Part shown: one piece after another, positions 6,362 to 14,868 of the stretch
How positions within the stretch are numbered: the first letter of the stretch is position 1
How the letters are laid out: each line of letters begins with the position of its first letter
NCBI GenBank assembly: GCA_003696445.1
Contig: RFHE01000334.1
Span: forward strand, 1-40,622
Direction of reading: 5' to 3'
DNA: 40,622 nt
From: Calditrichota bacterium
GTDB taxonomy: Bacteria; Calditrichota; Calditrichia; RBG-13-44-9; J042
Made by a program: the position numbers and the translations under genes
The notes under the pieces: model-generated
Database searches by the model: none
The model's input: only the letters and a program-made list of their open reading frames with translations
What the model was told of the DNA's origin: nothing

Positions 6362-6574
6362 GATGGCCTTCACAAATTGTTTTGGTTCGTTTCTCAAACA
6401 AATTAAAAGCCAACTCCCTCTGCTTCAAGGTTGTTTTTGGTAAGCCCACTTCGGGTCGATTTTTGGACAATGTAACCACGGTTCCAGCTTGGGAACCATT
6501 TCTTGCGTAACAAGATTGGTGACTCTATATTTGATTTCAATCACACAAATTTAAACTGTGAGCGGGGCGATTCC

Positions 6575-9535
6575 ATGAAACCTTTGTTAAGACGATTTCT
6601 CCTGTTGGGGATCAGCTTTGTTGTTCTGGTGGCCTGCAAACTGAGTGCTCAAAATTCCACAGCCGAACTGATCGCTACGATCGACCCTCCCTTAATTAAT
6701 GAAATTCGTGCCAGCGATGGAAACCGGGCGGTTACCGTGCGGGACAGCCTGTTGCTGGTTACCAATTTCTGGAATGGACTTCAGGTAATCAACATCGCTC
6801 AGGTGGAACATCCAAGGGAAATTGCTTTTTTGCCGCTGGAAGACCAGGCCCACAGGACGGTCGTTTCCGGAAAACGCGCCTACGTGGCCAATCACGCGGC
6901 CGGCATCCAGGTGGTGGACCTGACTGCGCTTCCCCGTCTCACCCCAGTGGCTACCCTGCCTACACCGGGGCCGGCGCTGGATTTAAGCGTAGAGGATAGT
7001 TTGCTTTACGTAGCCCTGGGGGATGAGGGCTTTTGCGTTCTCGAGGTGGCGGATTTGCATCACCCCCGTACCCTTGCACTGGAAGTACCTGGGGGATGGA
7101 TTCAGGCCATCGCCAAGCAGGGCAATCGGCTGTATTTGGCCGCCAAGCGAGATGGTGTGCTCCTCTACGATATCAGCCAGCCTACCCTTCCCCAAAAAAT
7201 TTCTCAGTACCGAACCGGGTTCGACGCCATGTACCTTCAGGTGGAAGATAGCCTGCTTTATGTGGCCGACGGGGGTGGTGGACTGCTCATCATGGATATC
7301 CGTCGCCCGGACTCCCCGGAAACGCTGGTGAGGGTACCCACCCAGGGCTTTATTATTCACCTGCACAAAATGGGCAATTTTGTTTACCTGGCCAATCTGG
7401 ACGTAGGTTTGCAGATGGTCAACGTAAGCGACCCCGCTCACCCGGTTCTGGAAAGCACATACCTGACCGAGAGCCAGGTGTATGGGGTGGAGAAACACGA
7501 CGAATACGTTTATGTGGCCGCCAACACCCAGACGTTGATTCTGCGTCACGATCAGGCCCCGCGCATGAAGCCGGTAGGCGACCTGGTGCTGAAAGAAAAC
7601 GAGCCCTTCCAGCTACAACTGGATGTATTTGATCCGGATGGCGATCCGCTCACCGTGCGCGCCTTTCACCTGCCCCCGGGGAGCAGCTTCGACAGCACCA
7701 ATTTTGTATTTCGTTGGAGGCCTACTTATGACCAGGCCGGGGTGTATCCAAACCTCATTTTTCAGGCTACCGAAAACACCCGCAGCCGCCTTTCGGTTGC
7801 AGACACCATTCAGATCACCGTAGAACACGTGAACCGGCCGCCGGATTTGCCTGAACTGGCTCCGCTGGAGGTAAAGGAAAATCAGCGGGTGGTCTTTCGC
7901 CTGCCCGCAGGGAGCGATCCCGATCCCGAGGATGCCGGGCGGCTTCGCTATCGGGCAGAGAACCTGCCGGCAGGGGCGCAATTTGACCCCGATTCACTGG
8001 AATTTCGCTGGACCCCCACCTTTGACCAGGCCGGGGTGTACATCGTCGATTTTGTGCTGGAGGATGGCGCCGGTGGTGCAGATCGCGAGCCGTTGGCCAT
8101 CAAAGTGGATAACGTGGATCGGCCGCCGGTGGTAGAACCGATTGCCGATTTAACCATCCGGGAAGGGGAAAGGCTGGAACTGCCTGTAAAAGCTACCGAT
8201 CCGGACAAAGAAGACGCCGGTCGCATTCGGGTGAAAGTGGAGAATTTACCGCCGGGTGCTGTTTTCGATTCTACCCGTTCCTTGGTGCTATGGACCCCCG
8301 ATTACGACGCCTCCGGCGTGTATCCGGATATTCGGGTCATTGCTTTGTCCGGACCGCTCAGCGACACCGCCCGGTTCACCCTAACAGTCTCCCATGTGAA
8401 CCGGCCGCCCGTTTTAGCCGACTTACCCGCCTTTCAGGTTCGGGAACAGGAAACGCTCCGTTTTCGGATTCATGGGAGTGATCCCGACCGGGAGGACTCG
8501 GCGCGGCTGACCTACCATGCGGAAAACCTGCCGCCCGGTGCGCAATTCGATCCCGACTCCCTGGAATTTAGCTGGACACCCACTTTTGAGCAGGCCGGCG
8601 TTTATCGAGAGGTCGGTTTCGTGGTCAGTGATCCGGAGGGGCTTTCGGATCGGAAAACCACCACCATTACCGTGGAAAATGTGAATCGACCTCCCAAGAT
8701 GAACCCACCCCCACCAATAAGCGGCAAAGAAAATGAATGGCTGGAGGTGCAATTAACGGCCAGCGATCCGGACAGCGAGGATGCCGGCCATCTGACCTTT
8801 TTTGCCCGTAACCTGCCGCAGGGAGCGCAGCTGGAGGCCAGCACCGGTCGGTTGCGCTGGAAACCCGACTTCGACCAGGCCGGTGATTACCGAATTCTGG
8901 TGGGCGTGCGCGACAGCGAACTGTCCGATAGTGCACAGTTGGCAATCCATGTGGAGAATACCAACCGGCCGCCTGAGCTCAACATGCCGGCCCAAATCAC
9001 GGCAAGGGAGGGCGAGCCTGTAAACCTTCGCATTCAGGCCAGCGATCCCGATCGGGAGGATTCGCTCAACCTGAGCCTGAGCATCGAATCCTTACCCGAA
9101 GGGGCGCGCTTTAATCCGGCCACCGGTGAACTGGCTTGGACACCCGGCTACCAGCAGGCTGGCACCTACAGCGTCACCGTCAAGGCCTCCGATGGCGAGG
9201 CGGAAACCAGTGGGGTGCTGGAAATCCGTGTGGAAAACGTCAACCGTCCCCCGCAACTAACCGTGCCAGCCACCATCAGTGGTAAAGAAGGGGAAACCAT
9301 CGAATTCACGGTTAACGCCGGCGATCCCGATCAGGAGGATCGGGGCCGGTTGCAACTACAGGTCCGCAATCTGCCCGAGGGGGCCCATTTCGACGCCGGG
9401 AGCGGTACCTTTCGCTGGCAGCCCAACGCCGAGCAAGCAGGGGCATACGAAGTCACTTTTCTGGTCGCCGATCCAGGCGGCCTGCAGGCCTCGGCCACCT
9501 GCAAAATTACGGTTGCCGATGTACCCGAACTTTAA
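6575..9535 (+). CDS. LVIVD-repeat beta-propeller lipoprotein with seven tandem Ig/cadherin-like domains
   Basis: Signal sequence with lipobox-like 'VLVAC'; repeated 'LYVA...GGLLIMDIRRPDSPE' propeller units; seven ~90-aa units separated by 'V.NVNRPP' linkers. Confidence 0.85.
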   Translation: MKPLLRRFLLLGISFVVLVACKLSAQNSTAELIATIDPPLINEIRASDGNRAVTVRDSLLLVTNFWNGLQVINIAQVEHPREIAFLPLEDQAHRTVVSGKRAYVANHAAGIQVVDLTALPRLTPVATLPTPGPALDLSVEDSLLYVALGDEGFCVLEVADLHHPRTLALEVPGGWIQAIAKQGNRLYLAAKRDGVLLYDISQPTLPQKISQYRTGFDAMYLQVEDSLLYVADGGGGLLIMDIRRPDSPETLVRVPTQGFIIHLHKMGNFVYLANLDVGLQMVNVSDPAHPVLESTYLTESQVYGVEKHDEYVYVAANTQTLILRHDQAPRMKPVGDLVLKENEPFQLQLDVFDPDGDPLTVRAFHLPPGSSFDSTNFVFRWRPTYDQAGVYPNLIFQATENTRSRLSVADTIQITVEHVNRPPDLPELAPLEVKENQRVVFRLPAGSDPDPEDAGRLRYRAENLPAGAQFDPDSLEFRWTPTFDQAGVYIVDFVLEDGAGGADREPLAIKVDNVDRPPVVEPIADLTIREGERLELPVKATDPDKEDAGRIRVKVENLPPGAVFDSTRSLVLWTPDYDASGVYPDIRVIALSGPLSDTARFTLTVSHVNRPPVLADLPAFQVREQETLRFRIHGSDPDREDSARLTYHAENLPPGAQFDPDSLEFSWTPTFEQAGVYREVGFVVSDPEGLSDRKTTTITVENVNRPPKMNPPPPISGKENEWLEVQLTASDPDSEDAGHLTFFARNLPQGAQLEASTGRLRWKPDFDQAGDYRILVGVRDSELSDSAQLAIHVENTNRPPELNMPAQITAREGEPVNLRIQASDPDREDSLNLSLSIESLPEGARFNPATGELAWTPGYQQAGTYSVTVKASDGEAETSGVLEIRVENVNRPPQLTVPATISGKEGETIEFTVNAGDPDQEDRGRLQLQVRNLPEGAHFDAGSGTFRWQPNAEQAGAYEVTFLVADPGGLQASATCKITVADVPEL
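7555..9532 (+). repeat. Seven tandem ~90-codon repeats (putative Ig/cadherin-like domains)
   Basis: Recurring 'D.EDAG.L...NLP.GA.FD...F.W.P.FDQAGVY...V.NVNRPP' unit within the 1010-aa ORF. Confidence 0.85.
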
Positions 9536-10706: not shown

Positions 10707-11687
10707 ATGCCGCTGATCCGTATTCCCAAAAGGTGGGAACTTCCCGAATCGCAAGTGACTCCCGAGTCTATTTATTGGAACCGACGTCGTTTTTTGAAGG
10801 CATTGGGGCTGGGGACGGTTTCGCTGCTGGGAGGCTTCTGGCCCGGCCTGCTGAGTGGCGCACCCGATGAGCAGGACGAACTGCGGGCCACCATCCCCCC
10901 GCCGCACAAACCATATCCAGCACCACGAAATCCGCGTTTTCAGGTGGATCGTCCCCTCACTCCGGAACTAATTGCCGCTCAATACAACAATTTTTACGAA
11001 TTCACCCTCAAGAAAAATGGGGTTTGGAAACTGGCCCGAAGGTTTCGTCCCCGGCCTTGGACCATCGAAATCAGCGGAGAAGTTCATCGGCCCACCACAC
11101 TGGACATCGATCAATTGCTGGCCCGCTTTCCCTTGGAGGAACGTGTGTACCGGTTCCGTTGTGTGGAAGCCTGGTCGATGGTCGTGCCCTGGACGGGCAT
11201 TCCCTTCAAGAAAATTCTGGATTTTGTGCAACCGACCGGTCAGGCGCGCTACGTGCGTTTTGTCTCCTTCTACCGGCCCGAGGAAGCCCCCGGCCAGAAG
11301 GACCGCAGCTACCCCTGGCCTTATTTTGAAGGGTTGACCCTGGCGGAGGCCAGCAACGAATTAACCTTGCTGGCCACCGGCATTTACGGGCACCCGCTGC
11401 CCAACCAGCATGGCGCACCGGCGCGAATCGTGGTGCCCTGGAAGTACGGCTACAAAAACATTAAATCGGTGGTCAAAATTGAACTGACCCGAAAACGACC
11501 ACCCACTTTCTGGAATACACTGGTTCCGGATGAGTACGATTTCTGGTCTAATGTAAATCCTAATAAACCGCATCCACGGTGGTCGCAGGCTACCGAGCGC
11601 GACATCGCTACCGGAAGGCGAATTCCGACCCTGCTTTACAACGGTTACGCCCAGGAAGTGGCAGCATTATACAAAGAGAGTCGCTGA
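10707..11687 (+). CDS. msrP: Protein-methionine-sulfoxide reductase catalytic subunit MsrP (YedY-type molybdopterin enzyme), Tat-exported
   Basis: Twin-arginine signal 'RRRFLKALGLGTVSLLGGF'; catalytic Cys context 'RFRCVEAWSMVVPWTGIPF'; 'HGAPARIVVPWKYGYKNIKSVVKIE'. Confidence 0.93.
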   Translation: MPLIRIPKRWELPESQVTPESIYWNRRRFLKALGLGTVSLLGGFWPGLLSGAPDEQDELRATIPPPHKPYPAPRNPRFQVDRPLTPELIAAQYNNFYEFTLKKNGVWKLARRFRPRPWTIEISGEVHRPTTLDIDQLLARFPLEERVYRFRCVEAWSMVVPWTGIPFKKILDFVQPTGQARYVRFVSFYRPEEAPGQKDRSYPWPYFEGLTLAEASNELTLLATGIYGHPLPNQHGAPARIVVPWKYGYKNIKSVVKIELTRKRPPTFWNTLVPDEYDFWSNVNPNKPHPRWSQATERDIATGRRIPTLLYNGYAQEVAALYKESR

Positions 11688-11771
11688 AAACTGGAAAGGC
11701 AAAACCCCCACCGGGGATGGCGGAACTTCATTCTTTGAGCTTTTCGCTCACCAATGTACAGAGGAGGTCCC

Positions 11772-12446
11772 ATGCGCCGCTTGTTATCGTACACTTTGTT
11801 GCTTCTCGGCTTGTTGGTGGGGGGCAATCCAGTACCAGGCTGGACACAGGCAGCGGAAACCAGGCCGTTAAACTTGGAAACCTTGCCTTCCTTACCCATT
11901 CAGCCCGGGGACTTTTGCATTGTTTGCAATGTAGGGGCTCGCCATCTGGAGCGGGTGGTACTGTACCGGGGGCGAAGGGTGGGCCTGTGTGCTCTGCATC
12001 CCAGCACCTTTGCCAGTAATCCGGACTATTTTTTCCAGCAACTGCAACCTCAAGGTGCTCTGTTCCACGAGGACTCAATTTCCCGGAAGGCCTTGCGCTG
12101 GGGCTGGTTCATTGCCGGTGCCTGGATTACCCTGGCCATTTTCTCGGCAGGCCTGAGTTGCTGGATCGCACAGTGCAAAGGCTTACCGGCCAAAAAGTGG
12201 TTCTACCTGGGGCTGGTGCTTAATGTACTCAGTTTGCCCGTTATCATGACCCGGCGGGCACTGGCCCGGCTTAAACTGCCACCCCACGTCACCAAACCCC
12301 CTACAACGGCTCTGCCGGAGCCCTGTCCGGATTGTGGCGCCCTGAACCATCCGGCCGCCACTGAATGCAGTGGTTGTGGGAAACCGCTAAAACCTAAAAT
12401 GCAATCGGAAGTGGCACGGGCAGGTTTGAAACCGGGGGAGGGTTGA
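11772..12446 (+). CDS. Membrane protein with exported CxxC (TRASH/YHS-like) domain and C-terminal zinc ribbon
   Basis: ATG after GAGGAGG. Signal sequence, 'FCIVCNVGARHLERVVLYRGRRVGLCALHPSTFASNPDYF', two hydrophobic segments, 'CPDCGALNHPAATECSGCGKPL'. Confidence 0.7.
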   Translation: MRRLLSYTLLLLGLLVGGNPVPGWTQAAETRPLNLETLPSLPIQPGDFCIVCNVGARHLERVVLYRGRRVGLCALHPSTFASNPDYFFQQLQPQGALFHEDSISRKALRWGWFIAGAWITLAIFSAGLSCWIAQCKGLPAKKWFYLGLVLNVLSLPVIMTRRALARLKLPPHVTKPPTTALPEPCPDCGALNHPAATECSGCGKPLKPKMQSEVARAGLKPGEG

Positions 12447-12543: not shown

Positions 12544-14868
12544 ATGCCTGGGATTGCTCAGAAAATTCAGGGATGGCTGGAGAACCTATTTGAAACGGCC
12601 ACCGGGGATCTGCGCCGTCCCATTGTGTCCGAATCGCTGGAAAGCAACGTGAAGAACTTGTTCATTGTCGGTGACCTGGCCGGGGCTCCGGTGATTAAAA
12701 TGGCCATGGAACATGGCGTTCGGGTCATCGAAACGATTAAAAAACGGGCACAACCAGGACACAATCCCAAGGTGTTGGATATTGTTATTGTGGGTGCCGG
12801 AGCCGCCGGGCTCAACGCTGCTCTGGCTGCTCAGGAGGCCGGCTTCTCTTATCTGGTCCTGGAAAAAGAGCAGATCGCTAACACCATTCAGAATTTTCCG
12901 GAAGGCAAGTGGGTTTATGCCGAACCGGACAGCGTACCTCCCAAAGGCAAATTATGGCTGGACGGGGCCACGAAGGAAGATCTTATCCGCCGGTGGTATC
13001 AAATTGTGGAGGAAAACCGGCTTCGGGTGCATACCCAAGAGCCGGTGGAAAGCATCCAACGTGAGCAGGACCATTTTCGGGTCAAGACCAATCGGGGGGA
13101 ATATCGCAGTCGATTTGTGGTTCTGGCCATCGGCCAGCGGGGCAATCCAAGAAAGCTCGGCGTTGCTGGGGAGGACCAAGAAGCGGTTTACCATCGCTTG
13201 TACAGCCCGCGCAAGTATCGCAACGAGACGATTCTGGTAGTGGGCGGTGGCAACAGTGCCGTGGAGGCAGCCATTACCCTGAGCGAAGCCAATAAGGTAA
13301 TACTCTCCTATCGCGGTTCGGAGTTCAAGCGCATTTTTAAGGACAATGCTCGCAAGCTGGATGCGGCCATTGCGGCCGGAAAGGTGGAGGTGATTTTTCA
13401 CTCCCGGGTAGCCCGCTTCGAAGGCAAGCGAGCCGTTCTGGTTGTGGATTCGGGCGGCCATCAAGAGGAACGGGTTATCGATTTTGACCATGCTTTCATT
13501 CTGATTGGGGCCGAGTTGCCGGTCAAATTTTTGCGCAGTGCCGGCATCCGTCTGGAAAACGAGTGGCACGGCAGCATGTGGCCGGCGGTGGGCCTTGCCC
13601 TCTCGGCCCTGTTTGGGCTGTGGTTTTTCGGCGGCCATACCGGTTTTGTTCCCCCCTCCTTGACCACCCTGGCCAGCTGGTTCGGCGCACTGGTCACTGT
13701 GCTTTCCTTGGCCGGCCTGATTAAAATGGGCCAGTCCGGCCGCCGGTGGGGTTGGCTGGGTTTGGCCTTCGTAATCTGTTACACCATTTACGGTGCTAAG
13801 GTGGGCAAAGGAGAAGAGTTTTGGCCTTTTACTGGGTGGGGCTATCAGTGGCTTTCTTTTGCCGGACGGCCCTGGAGTTTCTGGTACACCGTGCTCTACA
13901 CGCTGGTGATGACCGTCTTCGGCTTGCAGGCCCTGAAGCGCTGGGGCCTGGACCGGCGGGATCGCTTTCAGGTGTGGCGATACGTCAGTTTGCTCAGCTT
14001 CCAGTGGATTTTCTTTTTCCTGATCCCTGAATTTCTGTTTCAATGGGCGGTCAAGTATCAGTGGTTAGGAGAGCTTTCCCGGGATCCGGTATTTGCCCAC
14101 CAAGCCTGGCGAGCCTACGGGCTGGTTTATGCCTGGCCCCTGTTTTTTTACACCTTCTTCTACAACCCGCACCAGGTCTGGGTGGTCTGGGGGGTGCTGT
14201 TGAGCTTTGTTATTATTCCCATTTTTGTGCTCTTCCATGGCAAGCGCTACTGCTCTTGGATTTGTGGGTGTGGGGGACTGGCGGAAACCTTTGGCGACCG
14301 CTGGCGCCATTATGCCCCCAAAGGCAAGGCCAGCATCCGGTGGGAATGGATGAACCAGGTGGTGCTGATTGCGGCTTTTCTGATCACCGGGGCCGTTCTG
14401 GTGAAGGATGCCTACGGCGTCCTGTCCGGGCTGGCCGACAGTTCCCTGCATCTGTATCGATTGATCGCCGACATCTGGCTGGTGGGTATTATTCCGGTCA
14501 CCCTGTATCCGTTTCTGGGCGGAAAAGTATGGTGCCGGTATTGGTGTCCGCTGGCCAAGATGATGCAACTGATTTCTAAATTTTACACCCGGAGGGGGGT
14601 TAGTAAATTTCACATTTACGCCAACGACAAATGTATTGCCTGCAACGAGTGTAGTCGCAATTGCCAGGTAGGCATCGATGTGATGAGCTTCGCCCTCAAA
14701 CAGGAAGTTTTGGACAACGGCAACAGCTCCTGTATCGGCTGCGGCATTTGCGTCACCGTTTGCCCGATGGACGTCCTATCTTTCCATCAGCCATTGGTAG
14801 CTAATGAAAAAACACCCAACGTCACGTTTATTGAGCGTCCCGGCAGTCCAGTTGGCGTAGAACAGTAA
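12544..14868 (+). CDS. Fused NAD(P)/FAD oxidoreductase - multi-TM NapH/CcoG-like domain - 2x[4Fe-4S] ferredoxin
   Basis: FAD motif 'IVIVGAGAAGLNAALAAQEAG', NAD(P) motif 'ILVVGGGNSAVEAAITL', about 8 hydrophobic segments, 'YCSWICGCGG', 'WCRYWCPLAKMMQ', 'CIACNECSRNCQ' and 'CIGCGICVTVCPMD'. Confidence 0.88.
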   Translation: MPGIAQKIQGWLENLFETATGDLRRPIVSESLESNVKNLFIVGDLAGAPVIKMAMEHGVRVIETIKKRAQPGHNPKVLDIVIVGAGAAGLNAALAAQEAGFSYLVLEKEQIANTIQNFPEGKWVYAEPDSVPPKGKLWLDGATKEDLIRRWYQIVEENRLRVHTQEPVESIQREQDHFRVKTNRGEYRSRFVVLAIGQRGNPRKLGVAGEDQEAVYHRLYSPRKYRNETILVVGGGNSAVEAAITLSEANKVILSYRGSEFKRIFKDNARKLDAAIAAGKVEVIFHSRVARFEGKRAVLVVDSGGHQEERVIDFDHAFILIGAELPVKFLRSAGIRLENEWHGSMWPAVGLALSALFGLWFFGGHTGFVPPSLTTLASWFGALVTVLSLAGLIKMGQSGRRWGWLGLAFVICYTIYGAKVGKGEEFWPFTGWGYQWLSFAGRPWSFWYTVLYTLVMTVFGLQALKRWGLDRRDRFQVWRYVSLLSFQWIFFFLIPEFLFQWAVKYQWLGELSRDPVFAHQAWRAYGLVYAWPLFFYTFFYNPHQVWVVWGVLLSFVIIPIFVLFHGKRYCSWICGCGGLAETFGDRWRHYAPKGKASIRWEWMNQVVLIAAFLITGAVLVKDAYGVLSGLADSSLHLYRLIADIWLVGIIPVTLYPFLGGKVWCRYWCPLAKMMQLISKFYTRRGVSKFHIYANDKCIACNECSRNCQVGIDVMSFALKQEVLDNGNSSCIGCGICVTVCPMDVLSFHQPLVANEKTPNVTFIERPGSPVGVEQ

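Follow-up and report, generated by a model that had tools for sequence, protein, structure and literature searches.

A circularly permuted TrxR/YpdA-type flavin domain on a membrane iron-sulfur protein of Calditrichota and other phyla

Position of the FAD-contact segment in the flavin domain

The locus studied here raises the question of whether a flavin domain that carries its C-terminal FAD-contacting motif ahead of its GxGxxG motif is circularly permuted, and of what such a domain would do at the head of a membrane iron-sulfur protein. The gene lies at positions 12544 to 14868 of the window (the whole stretch of 40,622 nucleotides that was analysed) and, like its own parts and the two upstream genes given below, is on the forward strand. 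Its 774-residue product comprises an FAD/NAD(P) domain, a NapH/NosR-like membrane module of about eight transmembrane (TM) helices, and a 2x[4Fe-4S] ferredoxin. Such proteins are publicly annotated just as 'NAD(P)-binding domain-containing protein', and among the matches listed no curated NCBIfam family reached its cut-off for the whole protein. We infer, with a probability of about three in four, that the gene encodes an NAD(P)H/iron-sulfur oxidoreductase, anchored in the membrane, whose flavin domain is of the low-Mr TrxR/YpdA type and circularly permuted. Natural circular permutations of enzymes are uncommon.

The flavin domain, which is matched by Pfam Pyr_redox_3 at E 2.3e-45, has the GxGxxG FAD motif and the inserted NAD(P) domain (GxGxxA/G) of the low-Mr TrxR/YpdA fold. 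It also has the GD segment that contacts FAD, yet this is located N-terminally, and the usual order of core, then GD, does not hold. The GxGxxG motif (residues 84-89) follows the GD segment and forms part of IVGAGAAG (residues 82-89, positions 12787 to 12810), which was assigned to binding of the ADP moiety of FAD from Pfam Pyr_redox_3 and Pyr_redox_2 matches, a motif tally, and alignment with YpdA. All Pfam and NCBIfam models of the domain start at residues 77-79, stop at 337-340, and are unmatched at their C-terminal ends; the NCBIfam models for YpdA and TrxR are covered from 1 to 264 of 316 and from 2 to 251 of 300 positions, respectively. Because both are matched short of their ends, the C-terminal piece of the domain is missing from its usual place. 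A second GD motif after residue 340, which the first-pass annotation had said would speak against a permutation, is absent, the sole later 'GD' being the GDRW of the Fe-S region.

The corresponding piece is found at residues 24-65 (positions 12613 to 12738; RRPIVSESLESNVKNLFIVGDLAGAPVIKMAMEHGVRVIETI), with the pattern RP..SN..GD-LAGAPVIK-AM ending in a helix. Within it, GDLAGAPVIKxAM is near-invariant across 66 full-length relatives, in which the core reads RP...S...GDLAGAPVIK.AM..G, and G43, D44, G47, A48, P49, V50, K52, A54, and M55 are invariant in the family alignments; the conservation of these positions excludes a chance motif. When a profile made from 55 relatives over residues 12-76 was run on all PDB chains, the best match was to lipoamide dehydrogenase (1lvl 289-331, E 1.8e-4), in its C-terminal GD segment, and most other matches were to the equivalent segment in further members of the superfamily, among them glutathione reductase, CoA-disulfide reductase, TrxR, and FNR. 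Of the remainder, most were short stretches of transporter proteins. In lipoamide dehydrogenase and glutathione reductase, this homologous segment instead comes after the NAD(P) domain, with the dimer domain behind it. Residues 25-65 alone gave a weak alignment to YpdA 275-321 that is not significant by itself.

We then examined the effect of restoring the canonical order, by appending the N-terminal segment after the core and scoring the product with an HMM that represents YpdA-like proteins of canonical order in other genomes; shuffled segments served as the control. The native segments gained a mean of +16.6 bits over the core alone, as against -0.04 bits for the shuffled ones (maximum 6.1). 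The de-permuted window protein aligned collinearly to HMM positions 14-332 of 335, and its alignments to the two YpdA structures were extended, from residue 272 to 321 in 7a76 (92.0 to 107.9 bits) and from residue 270 to 296 in 7a7b (97.2 to 109.9 bits). In an audit of 61 proteins, the segment lay upstream in all 34 permuted members (17 per architecture; the second architecture is described below) and downstream in all 27 canonical ones. Consistent with this, AF2 predicts a strand (residues 39-41) followed by a helix (51-68), which is the strand-turn-helix that a GD segment should form. The AF2 models have pLDDT 82 and pTM 0.65 for the flavin domain alone and pLDDT 79 and pTM 0.74 for the full protein; the top solved Foldseek match is YpdA (E about 1e-23), with probability 1.00 for YpdA/TrxR.

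The two joints created by the rearrangement differ in character. Where the old C-terminus meets the old N-terminus, a variable linker (residues 66-78, positions 12739 to 12777) was delimited by length and entropy in the relatives: the joint of residues 63-79 is 15-34 residues long in these, with a mean entropy of 2.38 bits over 66-77, and such variability in length and sequence is as expected for former free ends that have been joined. At the other joint, the end of the flavin domain (FLRSAGIRLENEW; residues 327-345, positions 13522 to 13578) is followed directly by TM1. The AF2 helix begins at residue 345, so that the flavin domain runs straight into the membrane, and the joint (327-346) is 20 residues long in 62 of the 66 relatives, so that there is no flexible tether to the membrane. 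The sequence shows that the new C-terminus lies at the loop that links the NAD(P)-domain return to the GD segment, and that from there the chain passes into the membrane module without a flexible linker. The earlier proposal that the permutation sets the end of the domain beside the membrane thus stands as anatomy, whereas its importance for electron transfer is something we infer.

Same core, joined old ends, new ends at a former internal loop, and occurrence in more than one independent assembly are the marks of a circular permutation, and all were found. We conclude from sequence comparison that the 774-residue protein is a TrxR/YpdA/lipoamide-dehydrogenase-type flavin domain, with its C-terminal GD segment moved to the front, on a membrane module. 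The first-pass annotation had read the domain in this way, from a C-terminal motif that precedes GxGxxG and a domain that halts where this motif is expected and passes into the first TM helix; each of these points was confirmed, the former by profile homology and de-permutation and the latter by the model ends and the predicted helix start, and the permutation itself is borne out by these analyses, the 66 relatives, and the paralogous architecture.

Cofactor motifs, membrane module, and proposed electron path

The NAD(P)-binding motifs GGGNSA and SYRG-x5-R occupy residues 234-263 (positions 13243 to 13332). Arg263 is present in 66 of 66 relatives and Arg257 is invariant, and both are situated where TrxR binds the 2'-phosphate of NADPH; the FAD and NAD(P) dinucleotide motifs are likewise invariant, with GGGNSA retained. 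The CxxC pair noted earlier as missing from the NAD(P) domain is indeed absent, and there are zero cysteines across residues 1-344. The position of the YpdA active-site cysteine is taken by alanine (GAGAAG). Given this lack of cysteines, thiol-disulfide chemistry is unlikely.

About eight TM helices, assigned from AF2 helices and counts of Lys and Arg in the loops, span residues 345-658 (positions 13576 to 14517). The cytoplasmic loops are Lys/Arg rich, and the loop charges fit a topology of eight helices in which the flavin domain, the ferredoxin, and the two CX3C regions face the cytoplasm, with loop 419-443 ambiguous. The module shows the NapH/NosR-type features, combining TM helices and a pair of CX3C motifs with a 2x[4Fe-4S] domain at the C-terminus (Fer4_5, Fer4_21). 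The first motif, C-x3-C-G-C, is at residues 570-576 (positions 14251 to 14271; Pfam Fer4_5 549-585) and the second, C-x3-CP, at residues 664-669 (positions 14533 to 14550); both are invariant. The ferredoxin domain (Pfam Fer4_21/Fer4_7) comprises residues 696-741 (positions 14629 to 14766). Across the relatives, the cysteines of the CX3C motifs and of the ferredoxin are invariant or nearly so.

The protein was compared with the closest known systems. The YpdA/Bdr bacillithiol disulfide reductase (7a7b, 7a76; TIGR04018) matches the core best in both sequence and fold, at 24-27% identity and with the same FAD and NAD(P) subdomains, but YpdA contains GPCG, whereas the window protein is permuted, fused to a membrane Fe-S module, and Cys-free in this domain, and scores 163.5 bits against the TIGR04018 cut-off of 339.9. 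It differs from thioredoxin reductase in having no CxxC redox pair (TIGR01292, 80 vs 343 bits). The nearest working analogues are the TrxR-type ferredoxin-NADP+ oxidoreductases (e.g., 3ab1 and 6gar), which have a TrxR fold without CxxC and exchange electrons between NADPH and ferredoxin, although they are canonical in order, soluble, served by a separate ferredoxin, and about 19-26% identical. With the Fer4_5 proteins NapH, NosR, YccM, and PceC (TIGR02163, PF12801), it shares the two CX3C motifs and the C-terminal 2x[4Fe-4S] ferredoxin, while its first motif differs in being C-x3-C-G-C. NapH has no N-terminal module in place of the cytoplasmic permuted FAD/NAD(P) domain, and the window protein stays below the NapH family cut-offs (TIGR02163, 63 vs 213 bits; NF007013, 56 vs 234 bits). 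NosR and PceC bear a periplasmic flavinylated FMN domain N-terminally; among the Pfam and NCBIfam matches listed for the window protein there is no FMN-binding one.

The dinucleotide motifs, the conserved Fe-S cysteines, and the cytoplasmic topology together point to a route from NAD(P)H through FAD to Fe-S clusters at the cytoplasmic face, and then to quinone or a partner across the membrane. In the mechanism that we propose, the transposed segment would complete the FAD site within its own chain, and NAD(P)H, probably NADPH, would reduce FAD on the cytoplasmic side. FAD would pass electrons one at a time to the cytoplasmic [4Fe-4S] clusters, and these would deliver them to a membrane quinone or, via an upstream partner, to an external acceptor; flow in the reverse direction may also occur. 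The permutation would turn a former interior loop into a docking point of fixed geometry for the Fe-S partner. No single terminal enzyme is conserved across the loci of the relatives.

Relatives and a second permuted architecture

The 66 full-length relatives of the fused form come from independent assemblies in at least ten phyla. Relatives of this form were seen in MAGs labelled Calditrichota, KSB1, Acidobacteriota, Planctomycetota (including Scalindua), Verrucomicrobia, Deltaproteobacteria/Myxococcota, Dadabacteria, Ignavibacteria, Kapaibacteria, Acidimicrobiia, Elusimicrobia, and Spirochaetia. Pseudoalteromonas sp. Bsw20308 has a homologue with 30% identity over the full length on a large plasmid (complete record); this gene (L114:7938-10292) sits among glycosyltransferase, DUF2064, and spermidine-synthase-like genes, a context unlike that of the MAG relatives. 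Permuted forms of either architecture are present in 22 of 40 genomes of the phylum. In one genome (G005, L120:7850-8257), a decayed fused gene retains about the first 141 residues in an open frame of 149 aa; next to it lie pieces of the partner gene described below.

The same genome as the window carries a 474-residue paralogue (L116:3175-4596) with the same permuted order, in which an N-terminal TM helix and two Fe-S motifs (C-x2-C-x2-C-x3-C and C-x5-C-x3-C) are followed by a GD-like segment (GE) and the FAD/NAD(P) core. In this Fd type, 16 of 17 proteins have a spacing of 36 between the last cysteine and the GE motif. The two architectures thus carry their redox partner at one and the same cut and at fixed spacing, on the N-terminal side in the Fd type and on the C-terminal side in the window protein. 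In Fd-type proteins (e.g., L122:8509-9828, minus strand), the second Fe-S motif reads CVGHGxC-x3-C, with a histidine at the expected second cysteine and possibly a [3Fe-4S] or His-ligated cluster.

In most loci examined, the Fd-type gene ends a conserved cluster (e.g., L116:3-4596, on contig C311 of the same genome; L122:8509-16546; and L115:4791-12923) that also encodes a 290-aa membrane protein, multiheme cytochromes, which number one to three (with 9-40 CxxCH motifs in those inspected), and a protein of ∼550 aa that resembles an outer-membrane barrel. The 290-aa protein has conserved histidines and is possibly cytochrome b-like, on Pfam hits that are all sub-threshold. An Emticicia plasmid has the same gene set in slightly different order. 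The cluster suggests an electron path from NAD(P)H to the outside, possibly an undescribed NAD(P)H-driven conduit for extracellular electron transfer in Calditrichota and Bacteroidota.

The closest canonical-order matches of the permuted core are YpdA and a YpdA/TrxR-like group of other genomes, rather than classical TrxR. That group (L113 and L134-L140; 33% identical), like YpdA, has a normal C-terminal GD segment and none N-terminally. In a 790-aa open frame (L148, G004:C85), a TrxR-like core and GD segment in canonical order precede a long C-terminal region. Among the proteins sampled, we saw no tandem-duplicated intermediate. The core tree strongly supports the Fd form, YpdA, TrxR, and another canonical group, and constraining all permuted proteins to one clade was not rejected (log-likelihood 1.8 higher, p-AU 0.57); the tree alone leaves one versus two origins undecided, and a single permutation event is the simplest reading, though not a proven one. 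Tentatively, and with rather less than even confidence, we suggest that one ancient permutation of the TrxR/YpdA fold gave rise to a dedicated NAD(P)H input module, free of thiols, that docks Fe-S partners at its cut site, and that this module now drives at least two trans-envelope electron systems: the membrane polyferredoxin fusion of the window, and Fd-flavin proteins whose gene clusters also encode 9-40-heme cytochromes, a putative outer-membrane barrel, and a membrane protein with histidines (cytochrome b-like), which would form an undescribed NAD(P)H-to-outside conduit in Calditrichota and Bacteroidota.

The literature that we searched, limited in scope, described no permuted members of this flavoprotein superfamily, no YpdA/NapH fusions, and no C. 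abyssi cytochrome operons of matching kind. The permuted flavoprotein-polyferredoxin arrangement thus appears to be undescribed while recurring in many phyla. What is new is the use of the fold, in permuted order, as a fused input module; the flavin fold and the membrane ferredoxin type were already known. Here a permutation is widespread and conserved and has a readable consequence, in that the cut end bears the redox partner; it offers a testable case of a soluble thiol-reductase fold converted to electron input at the membrane, and it points to an uncharacterised link of NAD(P)H to membrane or extracellular electron acceptors. It also bears on annotation, as domain models end at the missing tail of the permuted proteins.

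Neighbouring genes and alternative explanations

Upstream of the fused gene, positions 11754 to 12446 encode a 230-aa protein with a putative signal peptide, a small Cys-containing domain, a TM helix, and a C-terminal zinc ribbon. At 43 of 79 loci a homologue is encoded on the same strand, mostly directly upstream; among the loci without one, some are truncated by the end of a contig and some have different genes alongside. This protein is the best candidate for a partner. Two genes upstream of the fused gene, positions 10707 to 11687 encode MsrP, the Tat-exported methionine sulfoxide reductase (NCBIfam MsrP, 421 bits). A large secreted repeat-protein gene (positions 6503 to 9535) is near MsrP, and an N-terminally similar gene is near MsrP in genome G014 (L163:5320-11500).

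Two alternatives concern the permutation itself. Misassembly, a wrong start, or a chance motif might be suspected in a window that is one contig of a genome in 404 contigs, but the same order in 66 full-length relatives from independent assemblies, and in the complete plasmid record of the named strain Pseudoalteromonas sp. Bsw20308, leaves such an explanation a negligible probability, and an assembly artefact is ruled out by these relatives. The N-terminal segment might otherwise act in trans, as a domain-swapped arm that fills in the FAD site of the other subunit of a dimer, in which case the protein would functionally be a swapped canonical domain and not an intrachain permutation. Low-Mr TrxR-like enzymes are dimers, and the 63-79 joint, variable and 15-34 residues long, is long enough for either route; against this, the AF2 monomer places the segment at a pLDDT around 90 (pTM 0.74 for the whole), in a monomer model whose reach does not extend to dimers. 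We regard a swap as improbable, though it is the strongest of the alternatives.

Slightly less probable still, and about equal to each other, are two different views of the role of the protein. In one, the flavin domain is not an electron input but serves a NapH-like quinol-linked Fe-S protein as a sensor of nucleotides or in regulation, which would agree with the ability of NapH-like proteins to function without a cytoplasmic flavin domain (eLife 2021, PMC8238504). The invariance of the FAD/NAD(P) motifs and both arginines, the fixed joint into TM1, and the sister architecture, which pairs the same flavin domain with Fe-S motifs and cytochromes, argue instead for electron input. In the other, the protein donates electrons to a molybdenum enzyme of the sulfite-oxidase fold, here MsrP, in place of MsrQ. 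MsrP is indeed on the same strand two genes away, the own genome (89% complete) gave no match to the MsrQ-type family PF01794, and at 8 Acidobacteria-type loci (L051, L060, L066, L072, L075, L076, L077, and L080) a short sulfite-oxidase-fold molybdoprotein is encoded directly downstream of the fused gene. However, the same MsrP type occurs in four relatives with no fused system beside it, where PF01794 matches are elsewhere or absent, and for this reason we do not rely on an MsrP partnership. As the pairing of MsrP with the repeat-protein gene is found in G014 without a fused gene, the MsrP neighbourhood may be independent of it. Across 40 genomes of the phylum, MsrP is unlinked to the fused gene; we therefore rejected it as a dedicated partner, and it is probably a neighbour and not an obligate partner of the NAD(P)H/iron-sulfur oxidoreductase that we favour. 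The Acidobacteria enzymes are of a different, unexported type, with no evident signal peptide, in a group that has no zinc-ribbon partner gene; they may reflect one event and may represent a local use of the permuted module.
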